A DNA stretch of 64,000 bases, taken from NCBI GenBank assembly GCA_018402205.1, contig JAGYIX010000003.1, forward strand, positions 372,001 through 436,000, read 5' to 3'. The notes under the pieces are model-generated. The model did no database searches, was not told the origin of the DNA, and saw only the letters and a program-made list of their open reading frames with translations. Made by a program: the position numbers and the translations under genes. Below, piece by piece: positions 58,328-64,000 of the stretch. This DNA comes from Flavobacteriaceae bacterium. Its GTDB lineage: Bacteria; Bacteroidota; Bacteroidia; Flavobacteriales; Flavobacteriaceae. The first letter of the stretch is position 1; every line of letters starts with the position of its first letter.

Positions 58328-58966
58328 ATGAAAACCGAATCTTTTCTCTCTTCTAGATTGTGGAGGTATGCCACCAAACGTTTCGATACTAATCAGAATC
58401 TGTCTGAAGAGCAATTGCATCTGATTCTCGAATCTATACGCCTTACCCCTACCTCTTACGGCTTGCAGCCGTTCAAGGTGTTGGTAGTGAATAGTATAAA
58501 CCTAAGGGAGCAACTGCGATCAGCAGGTTTTGATCAACCTCAATTTAGCGATGCTTCTCATCTTTTGGCTTTTGCGCACTACGACGGGTTCTCAGAGGAT
58601 CTAATTGACCGTTATATAGATCTAACTATAGAGATTAGGCAAGCAGACCCTGCAAAAATTGAAGGGTACCGCAGCTTTTTAAAAAATCTTTTTGGCGCAT
58701 GGTCTACCGAGCAAAAGTCGCATTGGGCAGACAAACAGATGTACCTCGCGCTGGGGAGTGCGCTGCAAGCAGCGGCTGAGTTAAAACTAGACAGTTGTGC
58801 TTTAGAAGGCTTCGATTCAAAAAAGGCTAATGAAATTTTAGGGTTGACTGAAAAGCACCTAAAAGTTACCGCATTTCTAGCCCTTGGATATCGATCTTCA
58901 GAAGACGCCACGCAGCACCTGCCCAAGGTGAGAGTCCCCTCATCTGTTCTAGTTGAAATCATTTAA
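58328..58966 (+). CDS. NAD(P)H-dependent nitroreductase-family oxidoreductase
   Basis: A 212-residue FMN enzyme resembling NfsB. The N-terminal RLWRYATKRFDTNQNLSEEQ, the FMN-phosphate region RLTPTSYGLQPFKVLVV, and the C-terminal KVTAFLALGYRSSED are typical. Natural substrates are uncertain; such enzymes reduce quinones or nitroaromatics. Confidence 0.9.
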   Translation: MKTESFLSSRLWRYATKRFDTNQNLSEEQLHLILESIRLTPTSYGLQPFKVLVVNSINLREQLRSAGFDQPQFSDASHLLAFAHYDGFSEDLIDRYIDLTIEIRQADPAKIEGYRSFLKNLFGAWSTEQKSHWADKQMYLALGSALQAAAELKLDSCALEGFDSKKANEILGLTEKHLKVTAFLALGYRSSEDATQHLPKVRVPSSVLVEII

Positions 58967-58985
58967 GCAAAGACCTAAAATAGTC

Positions 58986-59015
58986 TTGCCATTTTATGTG
59001 CAAATTGTATATTTG
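58986..59015 (+). promoter_or_regulatory. Bacteroidetes-type promoter of the trp operon
   Basis: TTG at 58986-58988, a 19-nt spacer and TATATTTG at 59008-59015, a full match to the TTG/TAnnTTTG consensus. The leader-peptide ATG begins only 6 nt after it, so the transcript would start at or next to that ATG. Confidence 0.78.
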
Positions 59016-59020
59016 GCCTT

Positions 59021-59077
59021 ATGTTAAAAAATCAGTTTATCTCTAAGTGGTGGTCATGGTCTACATTCAGACGGTGA
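59021..59077 (+). CDS. trpL: Trp leader peptide
   Basis: An 18-codon ORF encoding MLKNQFISKWWSWSTFRR, with Trp at positions 10, 11 and 13 (TGG TGG TCA TGG). It lies between the trp promoter and a terminator in front of trpE. Trp is otherwise rare, so three in 18 codons is strong evidence for a ribosome-stalling leader: low charged tRNA-Trp stalls the ribosome and prevents the terminator. Too short for routine gene finders. The only Trp-tRNA gene seen (CCA) is in this window. The peptide has no clear SD sequence. Confidence 0.85.
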   Translation: MLKNQFISKWWSWSTFRR

Positions 59078-59103
59078 TGCAATGCTTATATCCATAATTT
59101 TAG

Positions 59104-59129
59104 AGCCTGTCATCACGACAGGCTTTTTT
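59104..59129 (+). terminator. trp attenuator terminator
   Basis: AGCCTGTC (59104-59111), loop ATCAC, GACAGGCT (59117-59124), then Ts to 59129, 12 nt before trpE. Two competing pairings can be drawn: GACGG (59070-59074) with CTGTC (59107-59111), or GTGATG (59074-59079) with CATCAC (59111-59116). Which is the true antiterminator is unresolved. Confidence 0.88.
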
Positions 59130-59140
59130 ATTTATACCTC

Positions 59141-60541
59141 ATGACTTTTAAACTATATACACAGTACAGAAAGATTGTCGCCGATACGCTGACTCCGGTG
59201 AGTATTTTCTTGAAATTACGGGATCAGTTTGAAGGCAGTTTTCTGCTGGAGAGCAGCGACTACCACACTAGCGAAAACAGCTTTTCGTACATCTGCTGTA
59301 ACCCCATTGCTTCGTTTAAGGTTGAAAGAGGTGCCTTTAAAGCAACCTATCCAAACGGAGATGCCACTGTGCAGGCGATTGCACAAACCGAAGACCTCAT
59401 CGCCTCTATTCAGCAATTCACTTCGTCTTTTGAGATAGACCCTTCAGAATTCAAGTTTCTCTCTAACGGGCTCTTTGGCTACACTCAATACGATGCAGTG
59501 CGTTATTTTGAGCAGGTAGATTTCGATCTAGACAAGCCTGGTATTGATATGCCTGAAATGCAGTACACCCTGTTTCAGAACATCATTGCTATTGATCACT
59601 TTAAAAACGAGGCCTACCTATTTTGCCATAGCCAAGATGAGAAAAGCAACAATCTAGAAGTCCTTGAGAAGCTGCTGAGAGAGGCCACCTTTACCACATA
59701 CGAGTACACAAACGTAGGCGATACGGCCTACAACATGAGTGACGAGGCTTTCAAAGAACTAGTAGTGAAAGCCAAAGAGCATTGCCAACGTGGAGACGTC
59801 TTTCAACTCGTGCTCTCCAGGCGTACCGAGCAGCAGTTCAAGGGCGATGAATTTAACGTATACCGCGCCTTGCGCTCTATCAACCCAAGCCCTTACCTCT
59901 TTTACTTCGACTACACCAACTTCAAGCTATTCGGATCGTCGCCTGAGGCACAACTCATTGTGCAGCAATCGATCGCTGAAATTCATCCCATAGCCGGAAC
60001 CTATAAACGCACCGGAAACGATGAGCTAGACGCGGCGCTGGCAAAAAAATTGTCTGAAGACGTGAAAGAGAATGCCGAGCACGTTATGCTCGTTGATTTG
60101 GCGCGTAATGATTTGAGCAGAAACGCTGAAGAAGTGTCGGTAAAGACCTTTAGAGAGGTGCAGTATTTCTCACACGTGATTCATCTGGTTTCTAAGGTGA
60201 TCGCCAAGAAAAAGCCAGATGTGTCGGCCTTGCAGCTCATGGCAGATACGTTTCCGGCCGGAACCTTGAGCGGGGCCCCAAAACCAATGGCGCTGAAATT
60301 GATTGATCGCTATGAACCCACTAAAAGAGGGTACTACGGAGGAGCCATTGGGTTCTTCGATTTTAACGACAATTACAACCATGCTATTTTGATTCGGTCT
60401 TTTCTCAGTCACCAAAACACGCTCTACTACCAGGCCGGAGCAGGCATTGTAGCCTCTTCATCTCCTGAAAATGAGCTTCAAGAAACCTACAACAAACTAG
60501 GGGCTCTTCAAAAGGCCCTAGAACTGGCTGAAAAACTATGA
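59141..60541 (+). CDS. trpE: Anthranilate synthase component I
   Basis: A 466-residue enzyme making anthranilate from chorismate using ammonia from TrpG. The tryptophan-feedback motif LLESS is at residues 35-39 in EGSFLLESSDYHTSENSF, suggesting allosteric inhibition by Trp in addition to attenuation. The chorismate-binding core (SPSPYLFYF-like SPEAQLIV; PIAGTYKRTGNDELD; TFPAGTLSGAPKPMALKL) is intact. The trpG start overlaps its stop by 4 bases. Confidence 0.96.
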   Translation: MTFKLYTQYRKIVADTLTPVSIFLKLRDQFEGSFLLESSDYHTSENSFSYICCNPIASFKVERGAFKATYPNGDATVQAIAQTEDLIASIQQFTSSFEIDPSEFKFLSNGLFGYTQYDAVRYFEQVDFDLDKPGIDMPEMQYTLFQNIIAIDHFKNEAYLFCHSQDEKSNNLEVLEKLLREATFTTYEYTNVGDTAYNMSDEAFKELVVKAKEHCQRGDVFQLVLSRRTEQQFKGDEFNVYRALRSINPSPYLFYFDYTNFKLFGSSPEAQLIVQQSIAEIHPIAGTYKRTGNDELDAALAKKLSEDVKENAEHVMLVDLARNDLSRNAEEVSVKTFREVQYFSHVIHLVSKVIAKKKPDVSALQLMADTFPAGTLSGAPKPMALKLIDRYEPTKRGYYGGAIGFFDFNDNYNHAILIRSFLSHQNTLYYQAGAGIVASSSPENELQETYNKLGALQKALELAEKL

Positions 60542-61117
60542 AAAAGCAGCGCATTTTAGTCATCGACAATTACGACAGTTTTGTGTACAACATCGTGCAC
60601 TACCTGAAAGAACTGGGGTGCACGGTAGAGGTCGTTCGAAACGATCAGTTTGAGCTTTCAGTCTTGAAAAATTACGATCGCATCGTCTTGTCTCCGGGGC
60701 CTGGAATTCCATCTGAAGCCGGAAAGCTCATGGAGGCCATCGACTACCTCAAGACCCTTGACAATCCCATTCCTGTTCTGGGGGTGTGCTTGGGTCATCA
60801 AGCTATCGCTGAATCGTTCGGAGACCAGCTAATCAACCTGTCTGAGGTCTATCACGGATTGAGCTCATACCATTAAAGTAGACAGCTCTCAGCCCATTTA
60901 CCGCGGGCTAGGCCCCCAAATTGAGGTGGGGCGCTATCACTCTTGGGTAGTGGCCGGATCTAAAGACACCGGGCTAATAGTCAGCGCTACAGATGAGCAC
61001 GGCACCGTAATGTCGTTTTCGCACGAATCACTTCCGTTTACCGGGGTGCAGTACCACCCAGAGTCGGTACTCACGCCAGACGGATACCAGATATTAACGA
61101 ATTGGATACAGTCATGA
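60538..61117 (+). CDS. trpG: Anthranilate synthase component II (glutamine amidotransferase), frame broken by a 1-nt insertion
   Basis: Supplies ammonia to TrpE by hydrolysing glutamine. The nucleophile is in GVCLGHQAIAE; the oxyanion region is LSPGPGIPSEAG; and the His-Glu pair is in FTGVQYHPESVLTP. The first frame stops at 60874-60876 after YHGLSSYH. Skipping the T at 60868 gives YHGLSSTIKVDSSQPIYRG and reaches 61117, overlapping trpD. The merged length of about 192 residues is normal. Since the rest of the operon is intact, a sequence error is likely; if real, the cell would depend on free ammonia for anthranilate. Confidence 0.92.
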
Positions 61118-62109
61118 AGCACGTACTCAACCGCCTAATCGCCCACGAGAGCCTAAGCAGAGAAGAATCGCGCCAACTGCTCATTGAAATTGCAGAAGGA
61201 GCCTACGATTCCCATCAAGTGGCCTCCTTTATGACCATTTTCATGATGCGCAGCATTACCGTAGACGAACTTACCGGATTTCAAGAGGCTCTACAGTCGC
61301 TTTGCGTGTCCATAGACGTTTCCGCTTTTGACCCCATTGATTTGTGCGGAACCGGGGGCGATCAAAAAGACACCTTTAACATCTCTACCTTGGCTTCTTT
61401 TGTGACGGCCGGAGCGGGCGTGCCTGTAGCCAAACACGGCAATTACGGAGTGAGCTCAAGCTGCGGAAGCAGCAATGTAATGGAGTATTTAGGCATCCGC
61501 TTTACCCCTGATCTAGAGGTACTCAAGCGCTGCCTAGACCAGGCGAATATTTGCGTATTTCACGCTCCGTTATTTCATCCGGCCATGAAGGCTGTAGCCC
61601 CGATCAGAAAGGCCTTAGGGGTAAAAACCTTTTTCAACATGCTCGGGCCTCTGGTCAATCCTGGAATGGTGAAAAAACAACTCGTGGGGGTTTTTAGCCT
61701 AGAGTTGGCCCGCCTCTACGCCTATCGATTTCAACAGACCGACATGCGCTACACCATCGTACATGCTTTAGACGGCTATGACGAAGTGTCGCTCACCTCT
61801 GCAGCAAAATTGATAAGCCCAAAGGGCGAGCGCCTTATTGAACCCTCAGATTTTGGATTTAATCCTTTAAATTCCTTAGCTATTGCGGGCGGAACTGATA
61901 TTCAGGCCTCCGCACAGATCTTCATGAATGTGCTCGAGGGAAAGGGTACGCCTGCTCAAAATCAAGTGGTGCTCGCCAATGCCGCTTTGGCTATAGCCAC
62001 CGCCGAAGACCTTACTATAGGCCGCGCCCTTGAGCGAGCCAGCGAGTCGCTTGAAGAAAAGAAGGCCCTCACTGCGTTTAACACACTCAAAAAAGTCGCT
62101 GCCTTATGA
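61114..62109 (+). CDS. trpD: Anthranilate phosphoribosyltransferase
   Basis: A 331-residue enzyme joining anthranilate to PRPP. The phosphate/PRPP loop DLCGTGGDQKDTFNIS is at about residues 75-90, followed by KHGNYGVSSSCGSSNVMEYL. Start at the ATG at 61114, overlapping the trpG stop; the frame extends to a TTG at 61102 but this is not needed. Confidence 0.96.
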   Translation: MKHVLNRLIAHESLSREESRQLLIEIAEGAYDSHQVASFMTIFMMRSITVDELTGFQEALQSLCVSIDVSAFDPIDLCGTGGDQKDTFNISTLASFVTAGAGVPVAKHGNYGVSSSCGSSNVMEYLGIRFTPDLEVLKRCLDQANICVFHAPLFHPAMKAVAPIRKALGVKTFFNMLGPLVNPGMVKKQLVGVFSLELARLYAYRFQQTDMRYTIVHALDGYDEVSLTSAAKLISPKGERLIEPSDFGFNPLNSLAIAGGTDIQASAQIFMNVLEGKGTPAQNQVVLANAALAIATAEDLTIGRALERASESLEEKKALTAFNTLKKVAAL

Positions 62110-62882
62110 GCATACTCGACCAAATAATGCAGCAAAAGGTGGTAGAGGTAACCGCCAAGAAGAAAGCGGTCTCGGTAAAGGCGCTAGAAAGCTTTGCGTA
62201 TTTCTACCGTCAAACCCATTCGGCAAAAGCGGCGCTCTTAGGCGGAGGCGTCATAGCCGAGCACAAGAGAAGGTCTCCATCAAAGGCGGCTATCAACACC
62301 CAATCAAAGGTGCAAGAGATGGTGTCTGCCTATGATAGCGGAGGGGCAGCGGTGCTTTCAATCTTGACCGACACCGTGTTTTTTGGAGGCAGTCTAGACG
62401 ACCTAATCACGGCCCGTAATCACACAGAGAAACCGCTATTGCGCAAAGACTTTATCTACGATCCGTATCAGGTCTATGAAGCAAAGGCATACGGAGCAGA
62501 CGTGATCCTACTCATTGCCTCGGTTCTGACTAAAAATCAAATCGACGAACTCAGCGCGCTGGCCCACGAATTGAACATGGAGGTCTTATTAGAAGTACAC
62601 GACAAAGAAGAGCTGTTAGAAAAACAATCCCCCGAAATCGACCTATTGGGGGTTAATCACCGCAACCTAAAAACCTTTGAGGTCAATTTAAGCCTAGGCG
62701 AAGAACTGCTGCCACTAATGCACAAGACCCAAGTGGCTGTGGCCGAAAGTGGCTTAAGCGAATTAGCGCAAATAGAACGACTCTACAAGCTCGGTTTCAA
62801 GGGCTTTTTAATCGGAGAATTCCTGATGAAAGAAGATCATCCGGCACAGACATTAAGAGCCATAAATCAACTGTTTCAATGA
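62106..62882 (+). CDS. trpC: Indole-3-glycerol phosphate synthase
   Basis: A 258-residue TIM-barrel enzyme closing the indole ring. Catalytic regions are visible in GGVIAEHKRRSPSKAAI (the E-K pair), RKDFIYDPYQVYEA and VNHRNLKTFEV. It overlaps trpD by 4 bases (ATGA) and trpF by 4 bases. Confidence 0.97.
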   Translation: MSILDQIMQQKVVEVTAKKKAVSVKALESFAYFYRQTHSAKAALLGGGVIAEHKRRSPSKAAINTQSKVQEMVSAYDSGGAAVLSILTDTVFFGGSLDDLITARNHTEKPLLRKDFIYDPYQVYEAKAYGADVILLIASVLTKNQIDELSALAHELNMEVLLEVHDKEELLEKQSPEIDLLGVNHRNLKTFEVNLSLGEELLPLMHKTQVAVAESGLSELAQIERLYKLGFKGFLIGEFLMKEDHPAQTLRAINQLFQ

Positions 62883-63523
62883 GTAAAACCCTGCAAATAA
62901 AGGTATGCGGCGTTCGCGACCAATCCGAGTCGATTGACGCCCTAGGCGTTGACTATATCGGGCACATTTTCTGGGAGCACTCATCGCGCTACCTCGATCG
63001 GGCCGCAGCAGAAGCTGCTTCGAAGATCCCTGTAGAAGCCAAGCGCATAGGAGTCTTCGTAGACGCCAGCCTCGACGAGCTTATGTCGCAGGTTGAGAAG
63101 TACCATTTAGACGGCGTGCAACTGCATGGCAACGAAAGCCCTACCGCGCTCGCCCAATTGAGACAGCGTTTTGGCGGGCTGATCTTTAAGGCCTTCTCGA
63201 TTGATGAACATTTCGACTTTAGCCGCATGGCAGCCTATTCAGAAAGTGTCGATATCTTTGTATTCGATGCAGCCGGAAGGTTGCCCGGCGGAAACGGTCA
63301 CACCTTTAACTGGGCGCTGTTAGCATCGTACCAAGAGACTCGTCCGTTTTTACTCAGCGGCGGAATCGGTTTAGATCAACTGGGCGACCTAAACCTATTT
63401 TTTAAGAACAAAGCAAGTGAAAAGTGTATCGGACTAGATCTCAATAGTAAGTTCGAACACCAGCCCGCTCAAAAAGACATCGCTAAACTAGCTAACTTCA
63501 TCACTCAAATTCAATCGCTATGA
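62879..63523 (+). CDS. trpF: Phosphoribosylanthranilate isomerase
   Basis: A 214-residue TIM-barrel isomerase acting before TrpC. The catalytic Cys is in IKVCGVRD, the Asp in [17 protein letters not shown], and the C-terminal [14 protein letters not shown] and LDLNSKFE complete the phosphate site. Overlaps trpC and trpB by ATGA. Confidence 0.95.
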
Positions 63524-64000
63524 AAACCACGAGTTACCACGTAGATGCCGACGGATTTTACGGAGAGTTTGGAGGCGCTTTCATCCCTGAAATGCTCTAC
63601 CCTAACACCGAAGAACTGCGCAATACTTACCTTGAGATTAGCTCTAGGCCAGAGTTTCAACTCGAATTTAAGGCCCTGCTAAAAGACTATGTAGGACGCC
63701 CTACACCGCTCTTTTTTGCCTCGCGTTTATCGGAGAAATACCAAACAAAAATCTACCTCAAACGAGAAGACCTTTGTCACACCGGAGCGCACAAAATAAA
63801 CAACACCATCGGTCAGATTTTACTGGCTAAGGCGCTGGGTAAAAAACGCATTATTGCCGAAACCGGAGCCGGCCAACACGGAGTAGCCACCGCCACCGTT
63901 TGCGCGCTAATGGGAATAGAATGCGTGGTGTACATGGGTGCTCTTGACATCAAACGTCAGGCCCCTAACGTGGCCCGCATGAAACTGCTGGGGGCCACCG
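63520..64000 (+). CDS. trpB: Tryptophan synthase beta chain, 5' part
   Basis: The first 160 codons are present before the window end; the ATG at 63520 overlaps the trpF stop. The PLP-binding lysine is in HTGAHKINN, followed by [15 protein letters not shown]. The start sequence [19 protein letters not shown] is typical. Continuation with trpA would be expected just downstream. Confidence 0.96.

Follow-up and report, generated by a model that had tools for sequence, protein, structure and literature searches.

The gap between a nitroreductase-like gene and trpE in a Flavobacteriaceae bacterium very probably holds a ribosome-mediated transcription attenuator of the trpE-G-D-C-F-B operon, judging from comparison of sequences and predicted folds. 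The gap lies in the window, by which we mean the whole stretch of 64,000 nt that was analysed (contig JAGYIX010000003.1 of assembly GCA_018402205.1, positions 372,001 to 436,000 of the forward strand). The earlier note on this DNA had described an 18-codon ORF with the run WWSW, followed by an 8-bp terminator with a U run and then trpE, and this arrangement is borne out by the sequence. The interpretation as an attenuator, which was drawn in that note, gains support from conservation of the leader, from covariation in the terminator, and from a competing antiterminator that the note did not contain. The features, all on the + strand and in window positions, are as follows.

58328-58966 (+), nitroreductase-like gene, upstream of the leader and trpE
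59008-59015 (+), -7 promoter box, TATATTTG; Bacteroidota consensus TAnnTTTG
59021-59077 (+), trp leader peptide ORF, 18 codons; sequence MLKNQFISKWWSWSTFRR, then stop
59048-59050, 59051-59053 and 59057-59059 (+), regulatory Trp codons (TGG) of WWSW
59053-59078 (+), predicted 1:2 hairpin, the minimum-energy fold of the ribosome-free leader; it hides strand 2
59074-59087 (+), antiterminator strand 2, GUGAUGCA..GCUU; overlaps the leader stop codon
59102-59126 (+), intrinsic terminator hairpin (strands 3:4), then a U run
59103-59116 (+), strand 3, the terminator 5' arm and loop; common to antiterminator and terminator
59141-60541 (+), trpE, anthranilate synthase component I; best model TIGR00564, score below the curated cut-off
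59243-59257 (+), LLESS motif in trpE, TrpE residues 35-39
60538-60876 (+), 5' part of trpG; frame broken
61114-62109 (+), trpD; TIGR01245, above cut-off
62106-62882 (+), trpC; best model just under its cut-off
62879-63523 (+), trpF; best model under its cut-off
63520-63999 (+), trpB, running off the window end; open-ended ORF, name given by eye

The TrpE product aligns with solved anthranilate synthases, its LLESS lying opposite FLLES of PDB 7bvd. The trpG ORF stops after 112 aa at 60876, and homology runs on in another frame toward about 61117, near trpD. The gene is open over 188-193 aa in 9 of the 10 relatives' loci checked (the tenth ends too early; two of the loci compared, L003 and L085, may be the same organism), and the frame break is either an assembly error or a real lesion.

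Other means of Trp control were also searched for. TrpR (PF01371) has no match in the window's own genome, which is 90.1% complete, and no match above the family cut-off in any of the 20 genomes searched, the E. coli control being positive; one of the 20, G007 of the same genus, matches weakly, under the cut-off. In the window, the Rfam matches at gathering threshold are only tRNAs, with no T-box. The earlier note had proposed both transcriptional and allosteric control by Trp. The transcriptional part is supported by the case for an attenuator; LLESS is present, and Trp feedback on TrpE is plausible, as far as the LLES motif alone can indicate.

The leader gene and its promoter

Judged alone, the Trp-rich ORF of the window is only mildly surprising. 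Short ORFs with adjacent Trp codons appear in about 1% of shuffles of this gap of 174 nt (197 of 20000) and, in the shuffled upstream regions of the fetched loci described below, in 21 of 2200. The leader ORF goes beyond chance because it is kept among relatives, which was the check suggested with the original description. Among named genomes, 78 of the 80 top-ranking TrpE loci have a Trp-rich ORF upstream of trpE. A first scan, for ATG-started ORFs with at least two Trp codons within 450 nt of trpE, found 74 of these; four of its six misses were recovered, one with a TTG start (L018) and three with the leader about 500 nt upstream (L056, L058 and L063), and the remaining two (L030 and L068) are contigs that start too late to show a leader. 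A separate search covered 98 genomes, including the window's own, with a strong TrpE match in 72, and 29 loci were fetched besides the window's. All 29 have the leader, 28 directly and L105 via a TTG start. A second trpE copy of the same-genus genome G006 was left out of the fetched loci, and the named and fetched sets overlap slightly, the leader of L085 being identical to that of L003. With the sets combined, the leader precedes trpE in 107 of 109 relatives' loci, the two misses being untestable. The ORF is at the same place in 10/10 same-genus genomes.

The Trp codons are conserved more than the rest of the peptide, which varies outside the Trp run even inside the genus. Among 101 distinct leaders, 92 have three Trp codons and nine have two, the run being mostly WWW. 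The window has Trp at codons 10, 11 and 13, an interrupted run. Since the runs differ within the genus (WWSW in the window, WWSL, WWSP, WWRS and WWW elsewhere), WWSW is therefore one variant with a partly changed Trp run. Two other arrangements were seen among the named loci. In L056, L058 and L063, the attenuator is separated from trpE by about 400 nt, with a repeat-like hairpin (CCGCCTTCGCGG or similar) at the end; these stretches look like insertions between attenuator and operon. L065 has two successive Trp-rich leader ORFs, both with WWWH, located about -316 and -168 relative to trpE; they may form a tandem attenuator.

The breadth of the element was followed with a covariance model built on the region from the Trp codons to the terminator. 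Of 395 genomes sampled across the phylum, it matches 76 at E <= 0.01. In the same family, 39 of 41 genomes are matched, as far as the kinship-ordered list shows, and 36 of the 41 at E <= 2.4e-5, which equals the window's own value. The loci fetched from this search have trpE in 30/30 cases. A second match in the window's own genome (E = 0.44) was rejected, being by eye the terminator-like end of a fumarase gene.

More distant loci were taken from 36 genomes of other families, hand-picked and so not a random sample, of which 28 had a model match somewhere in the genome and 27 a TrpE match at E <= 1e-80. In these 27 loci, which belong to other families of the order, class and phylum and reach TrpE proteins of only 37-39% identity (tblastn), a leader precedes the trp genes in every case. 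In 24 of them, a short ORF containing WW or W-x-W is no more than about 310 nt from trpE, L150 and L169 being counted on W-x-W only; the loose scan used here yields an extra, probably chance ORF at a greater distance in three loci. L158, L163 and L164, the remaining three of the 27, have an ORF with WW or WWW about 1.37 kb upstream of trpE, where leader and terminator stand before a TrpB-like gene (by eye) that itself precedes trpE. The attenuator thus seems to keep its place ahead of the operon's first gene even where the gene order differs. Because the model matched at the trp locus itself in only 10 of the 27, the way in which the distant genomes were chosen is insufficient to explain 27/27.

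The -7 consensus of Bacteroidota promoters is given as TAnnTTTG in two reports (PMC7366714; PMC9723704). The window's box ends 5 nt upstream of the leader ATG, so that the transcript is probably leaderless; we infer a transcription start at about 59019-59022, i.e., at the ATG itself. A TAnnTTTG box ends 3-21 nt before the ATG in 86 of 102 leaders, as against 184 of 5100 shuffles, and when TAnnTT[TA]G is allowed within 40 nt, 89 of the 102 have a box. The gap between box and ATG in these 89 is bimodal, with 33 leaders at 4-8 nt, 50 at 13-21 nt and only six between them, at 9-12 nt; this suggests two modes of translation start on the same leader gene. If transcription begins a few bases past the box, transcripts with the short gap would have little or no 5' UTR, and those with the long gap one of about 10 nt. 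For comparison, the same reports give a leaderless rate of 5.5% in Flavobacterium psychrophilum (PMC9723704) and 5' UTRs under 10 nt at about 3.7% in Bacteroides thetaiotaomicron (PMC7366714).

The terminator and its competitor

The terminator has a core of 8 bp (AGCCTGTC/GACAGGCT), 10 pairs when the outer ones are included, and a 5-nt loop. The region 58900-59200 contains two terminator-like sites, as against 0.2 +/- 0.5 in shuffles, and the other one sits within the upstream gene. In the set of 104 leader rows, which counts the window's own copy and one duplicate, 103 are followed by a hairpin with a U run; the remaining locus enters masked bases. Base-pair covariation, the other check that had been suggested, is also present. 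In an alignment of 56 leaders chosen from the 101 distinct ones, 91.8% of the terminator cells pair, and both sides are altered, with compensation, in 9 of 13 pairs. Cells with changes on both sides number 31, against 4.4 in shuffles, and none of 500 shuffles was as good; sliding the partners lowers every measure of covariation. For five of the 24 distant leaders that adjoin trpE, no terminator was detected by the script.

The region of the leader stop codon is complementary to the apex of the terminator (arm and loop). In the fold of the nascent transcript of the window, 59074-59087 pairs with 59103-59116 over 12 bp, with an energy of -10.6 kcal/mol. The complementary sequences differ among groups: TCGTGA faces TCACGA in many Flavobacteriaceae, GTGATG faces CATCAC in the clade of the window, GCGATGA faces TCATCGC in L086-L088, and CAGTGA faces TCACTG in L072 and L076. 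The leader-side element is read in differing frames, with TCG TGA as the last codons, as TTC GTG AAC TAA, or past the stop, and this speaks for its conservation as RNA.

The energy of pairing supports the antiterminator strongly across 101 loci and modestly for the window alone. The duplex averages -10.1 kcal/mol, against -5.4 in shuffled leaders (mean z -2.7), and is better than all 50 shuffles in 37 of the 101 loci. With a stalled ribosome, the nascent fold averages -13.7 kcal/mol against -7.5 for shuffles, z being below -1 in 97/101; for the window by itself, the nascent antiterminator is equalled by 6 of 100 shuffles. At least six cross pairs form in the stalled state in all 101 loci, yet also in 71% of shuffles, so that energy and spacing are better evidence than the count of pairs. 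The energy of the whole-leader fold is uninformative (z = -1.36).

Exchange of partners and covariation were also examined. When leaders and terminators of ten groups were swapped, native pairs were stronger on average (-11.2 vs -8.2), but, because most groups have a GTGA/TCAC core in common, the native partner led or shared the lead in only four of the ten rows. For the window leader, two of nine foreign terminator groups make a better partner than its own. The core hardly varies and is little informative for covariation. At the flanks, pairing by position is 51/66 against an expected 44.8 +/- 1.6 and 49/66 against 38.5 +/- 2.5, one further position being at chance level (24/66 vs 22.6 +/- 2.2); these counts, from 66 unique rows with 4 of the 101 loci skipped, are inflated by picking the register for maximum pairing.

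Ribosome position and the choice of fold

The position of the antiterminator 5' strand is much steadier relative to the Trp codons than to the end of the ORF. The distance from the last Trp codon to this strand has a median of 18 nt (IQR 17-19, sd 2.4) and lies within 15-21 nt in 95 of 101 loci, whereas the distance from the stop codon has an sd of 9.4 and ranges from -38 to +9. Strand 2 of the window begins at a distance of 14 nt from the third Trp codon and 20 nt from the WW pair. The distant set departs from the 18-nt value, its distances being 3-24 nt over 19 loci.

Folds were computed with an assumed ribosome footprint of about 10 nt beyond the A-site codon. When transcription is followed with a ribosome stalled at the Trp codons, the antiterminator (-10.6) is the fold of the window until the 3' arm of the terminator is largely made. 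With the ribosome at the stop codon there is no competitor and the terminator forms, and with no ribosome, strand 2 is taken by the 1:2 hairpin. The window has 12 antiterminator pairs in the first state and none in the second. Over the loci, the nascent fold averages -2.2 kcal/mol with the ribosome at the stop, compared to -13.7 when it is stalled. At least six antiterminator pairs persist with the ribosome at the stop in 23 of 101 loci, the window not among them, and in those 23, where the strand is left unmasked, passage of the ribosome may weigh more. In equilibrium folding the terminator wins in 100 of 101 loci even with the ribosome stalled, so that the choice between the folds would have to be kinetic. 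A kinetic choice of fold is general for attenuators.

The mechanism that these features suggest runs as follows. Transcription would start no more than about 2 nt from the leader ATG, and the 18-codon leader would be translated by a ribosome. When charged tRNA-Trp is scarce, the ribosome is expected to stall at WW(S)W, leaving strand 2 (59074-59087) open to pair with 59103-59116 before the 3' arm of the terminator exists; with the antiterminator formed, polymerase would proceed into trpE. When Trp is plentiful, the ribosome would reach the stop codon, which lies inside strand 2, and mask that strand. The terminator (59102-59126) could then form, and transcription would end about 110 nt after its start. 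A leader that is not translated would terminate too, its 1:2 hairpin (59053-59078) hiding strand 2.

A wider reading of these results is tentative, and we consider it rather less probable than its contrary. It takes the element as an ancestral trp attenuator of Bacteroidota, often leaderless, whose switch is set, at least in Flavobacteriaceae-like loci, by a ruler of about 18 nt measured from the Trp codons and not from the stop codon. The antiterminator would seize the terminator loop and adjacent bases before the stem closes, and passage of the ribosome, not its halt at the stop, would decide the outcome. In a phylum whose translation starts do not use Shine-Dalgarno pairing, and in a genome that yielded no TrpR, this might perhaps be the only transcriptional Trp control.

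Alternative readings and related systems

Other readings of the same region have to be weighed against attenuation. The hairpin starts about 135 nt past the stop of the nitroreductase-like gene, and could be the terminator of that gene, with the Trp-rich ORF a chance frame such as about 1% of shuffles produce. The relatives largely refute this: the leader ORF recurs before trpE at nearly every testable locus (107/109), though the peptides vary, and a promoter box lies 3-21 nt upstream of its ATG in 86 of 102 leaders. We regard this reading as almost certainly wrong. Since the hairpin ends only 14 nt upstream of the trpE ATG, the leader might instead act mainly on translation of trpE, or bind a Trp-sensing protein in the manner of TRAP, with no stalling of a ribosome; control of the TRAP type is known in Bacillus (PMC3913778). 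The conserved in-frame tandem Trp codons and their steady distance from the antiterminator (95/101) point to the ribosome as sensor, and the U run after the hairpin also speaks against control by translation or a TRAP-like protein, which makes such control highly unlikely here.

An attenuator that works as proposed could have a further product, the terminated, leaderless RNA of about 110 nt acting in trans as an sRNA or as a mini-mRNA for the peptide. Its geometry would be that of Sinorhizobium rnTrpL/peTrpL: the RNA starts with the initiation codon of a short Trp-rich ORF (a probable start in the present case) and ends in a terminator. The leader peptides differ outside the Trp run even within the genus, and we consider an action in trans improbable, if somewhat less so than the reading just dismissed. 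Cis-acting attenuation of transcription remains the preferred reading.

The classical system is trpL of E. coli, with tandem Trp codons at about 10-11, alternative 1:2, 2:3 and 3:4 structures, and a terminator just before trpE. The present element resembles it in the short leader peptide, the tandem Trp codons, the three alternative pairings, and the place of the terminator before trpE. It differs in that no TrpR was found, the promoter box is of the Bacteroidota type, the transcript is probably leaderless, and the antiterminator of the window pairs partly with the terminator loop. RF00513, the Trp_leader family of Rfam, is not among the matches at gathering threshold, and a search of 58940-59200 up to E = 10 gave six weak matches to unrelated families and none to Trp_leader. 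A short gene and an RNA switch are added that every Rfam model missed in the window. Comparative genomics by Vitreschak et al. in 2004 is reported to have predicted attenuators of amino-acid operons, including some in Bacteroidetes/Chlorobi; those predictions concern the same class of element and use a similar kind of argument.

Leader-peptide attenuation in the absence of repression is described for S. meliloti trpLE(G) with rnTrpL/peTrpL, where the trpL transcript begins directly with the ATG of a leader ORF of 14 aa that has several Trp codons in a row (PMC7298713). The window would resemble it in a start at the leader ATG, which here is a predicted one, and in attenuation with no TrpR found; the differences are the phylum and the fuller trp operon downstream, and of the two elements only that of Sinorhizobium is reported to act in trans. 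The nearest printed precedent we found is in the same family, Flavobacteriaceae, and proposes the same mechanism: attenuation by leader peptides was suggested before amino-acid operons of F. psychrophilum, trp not being named in the available text (PMC9723704). To this, the present work adds a survey of trp loci and covariation. Leader-peptide-like sORFs are also reported in B. thetaiotaomicron (PMC7366714). The literature search, whose coverage left out most subscription journals, gave no Bacteroidota trp attenuator by name.

The present results suggest that leader-peptide attenuation runs Trp synthesis across much of a large phylum of environmental and gut bacteria, no TrpR having been detected in the genomes searched. 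They also provide objects in which to test how ribosomes that do without Shine-Dalgarno pairing couple to transcription on probably leaderless or very short leaders. Compared with the systems above, the kind of element is already known; what is new is the present member, its antiterminator, its spacing and its breadth.
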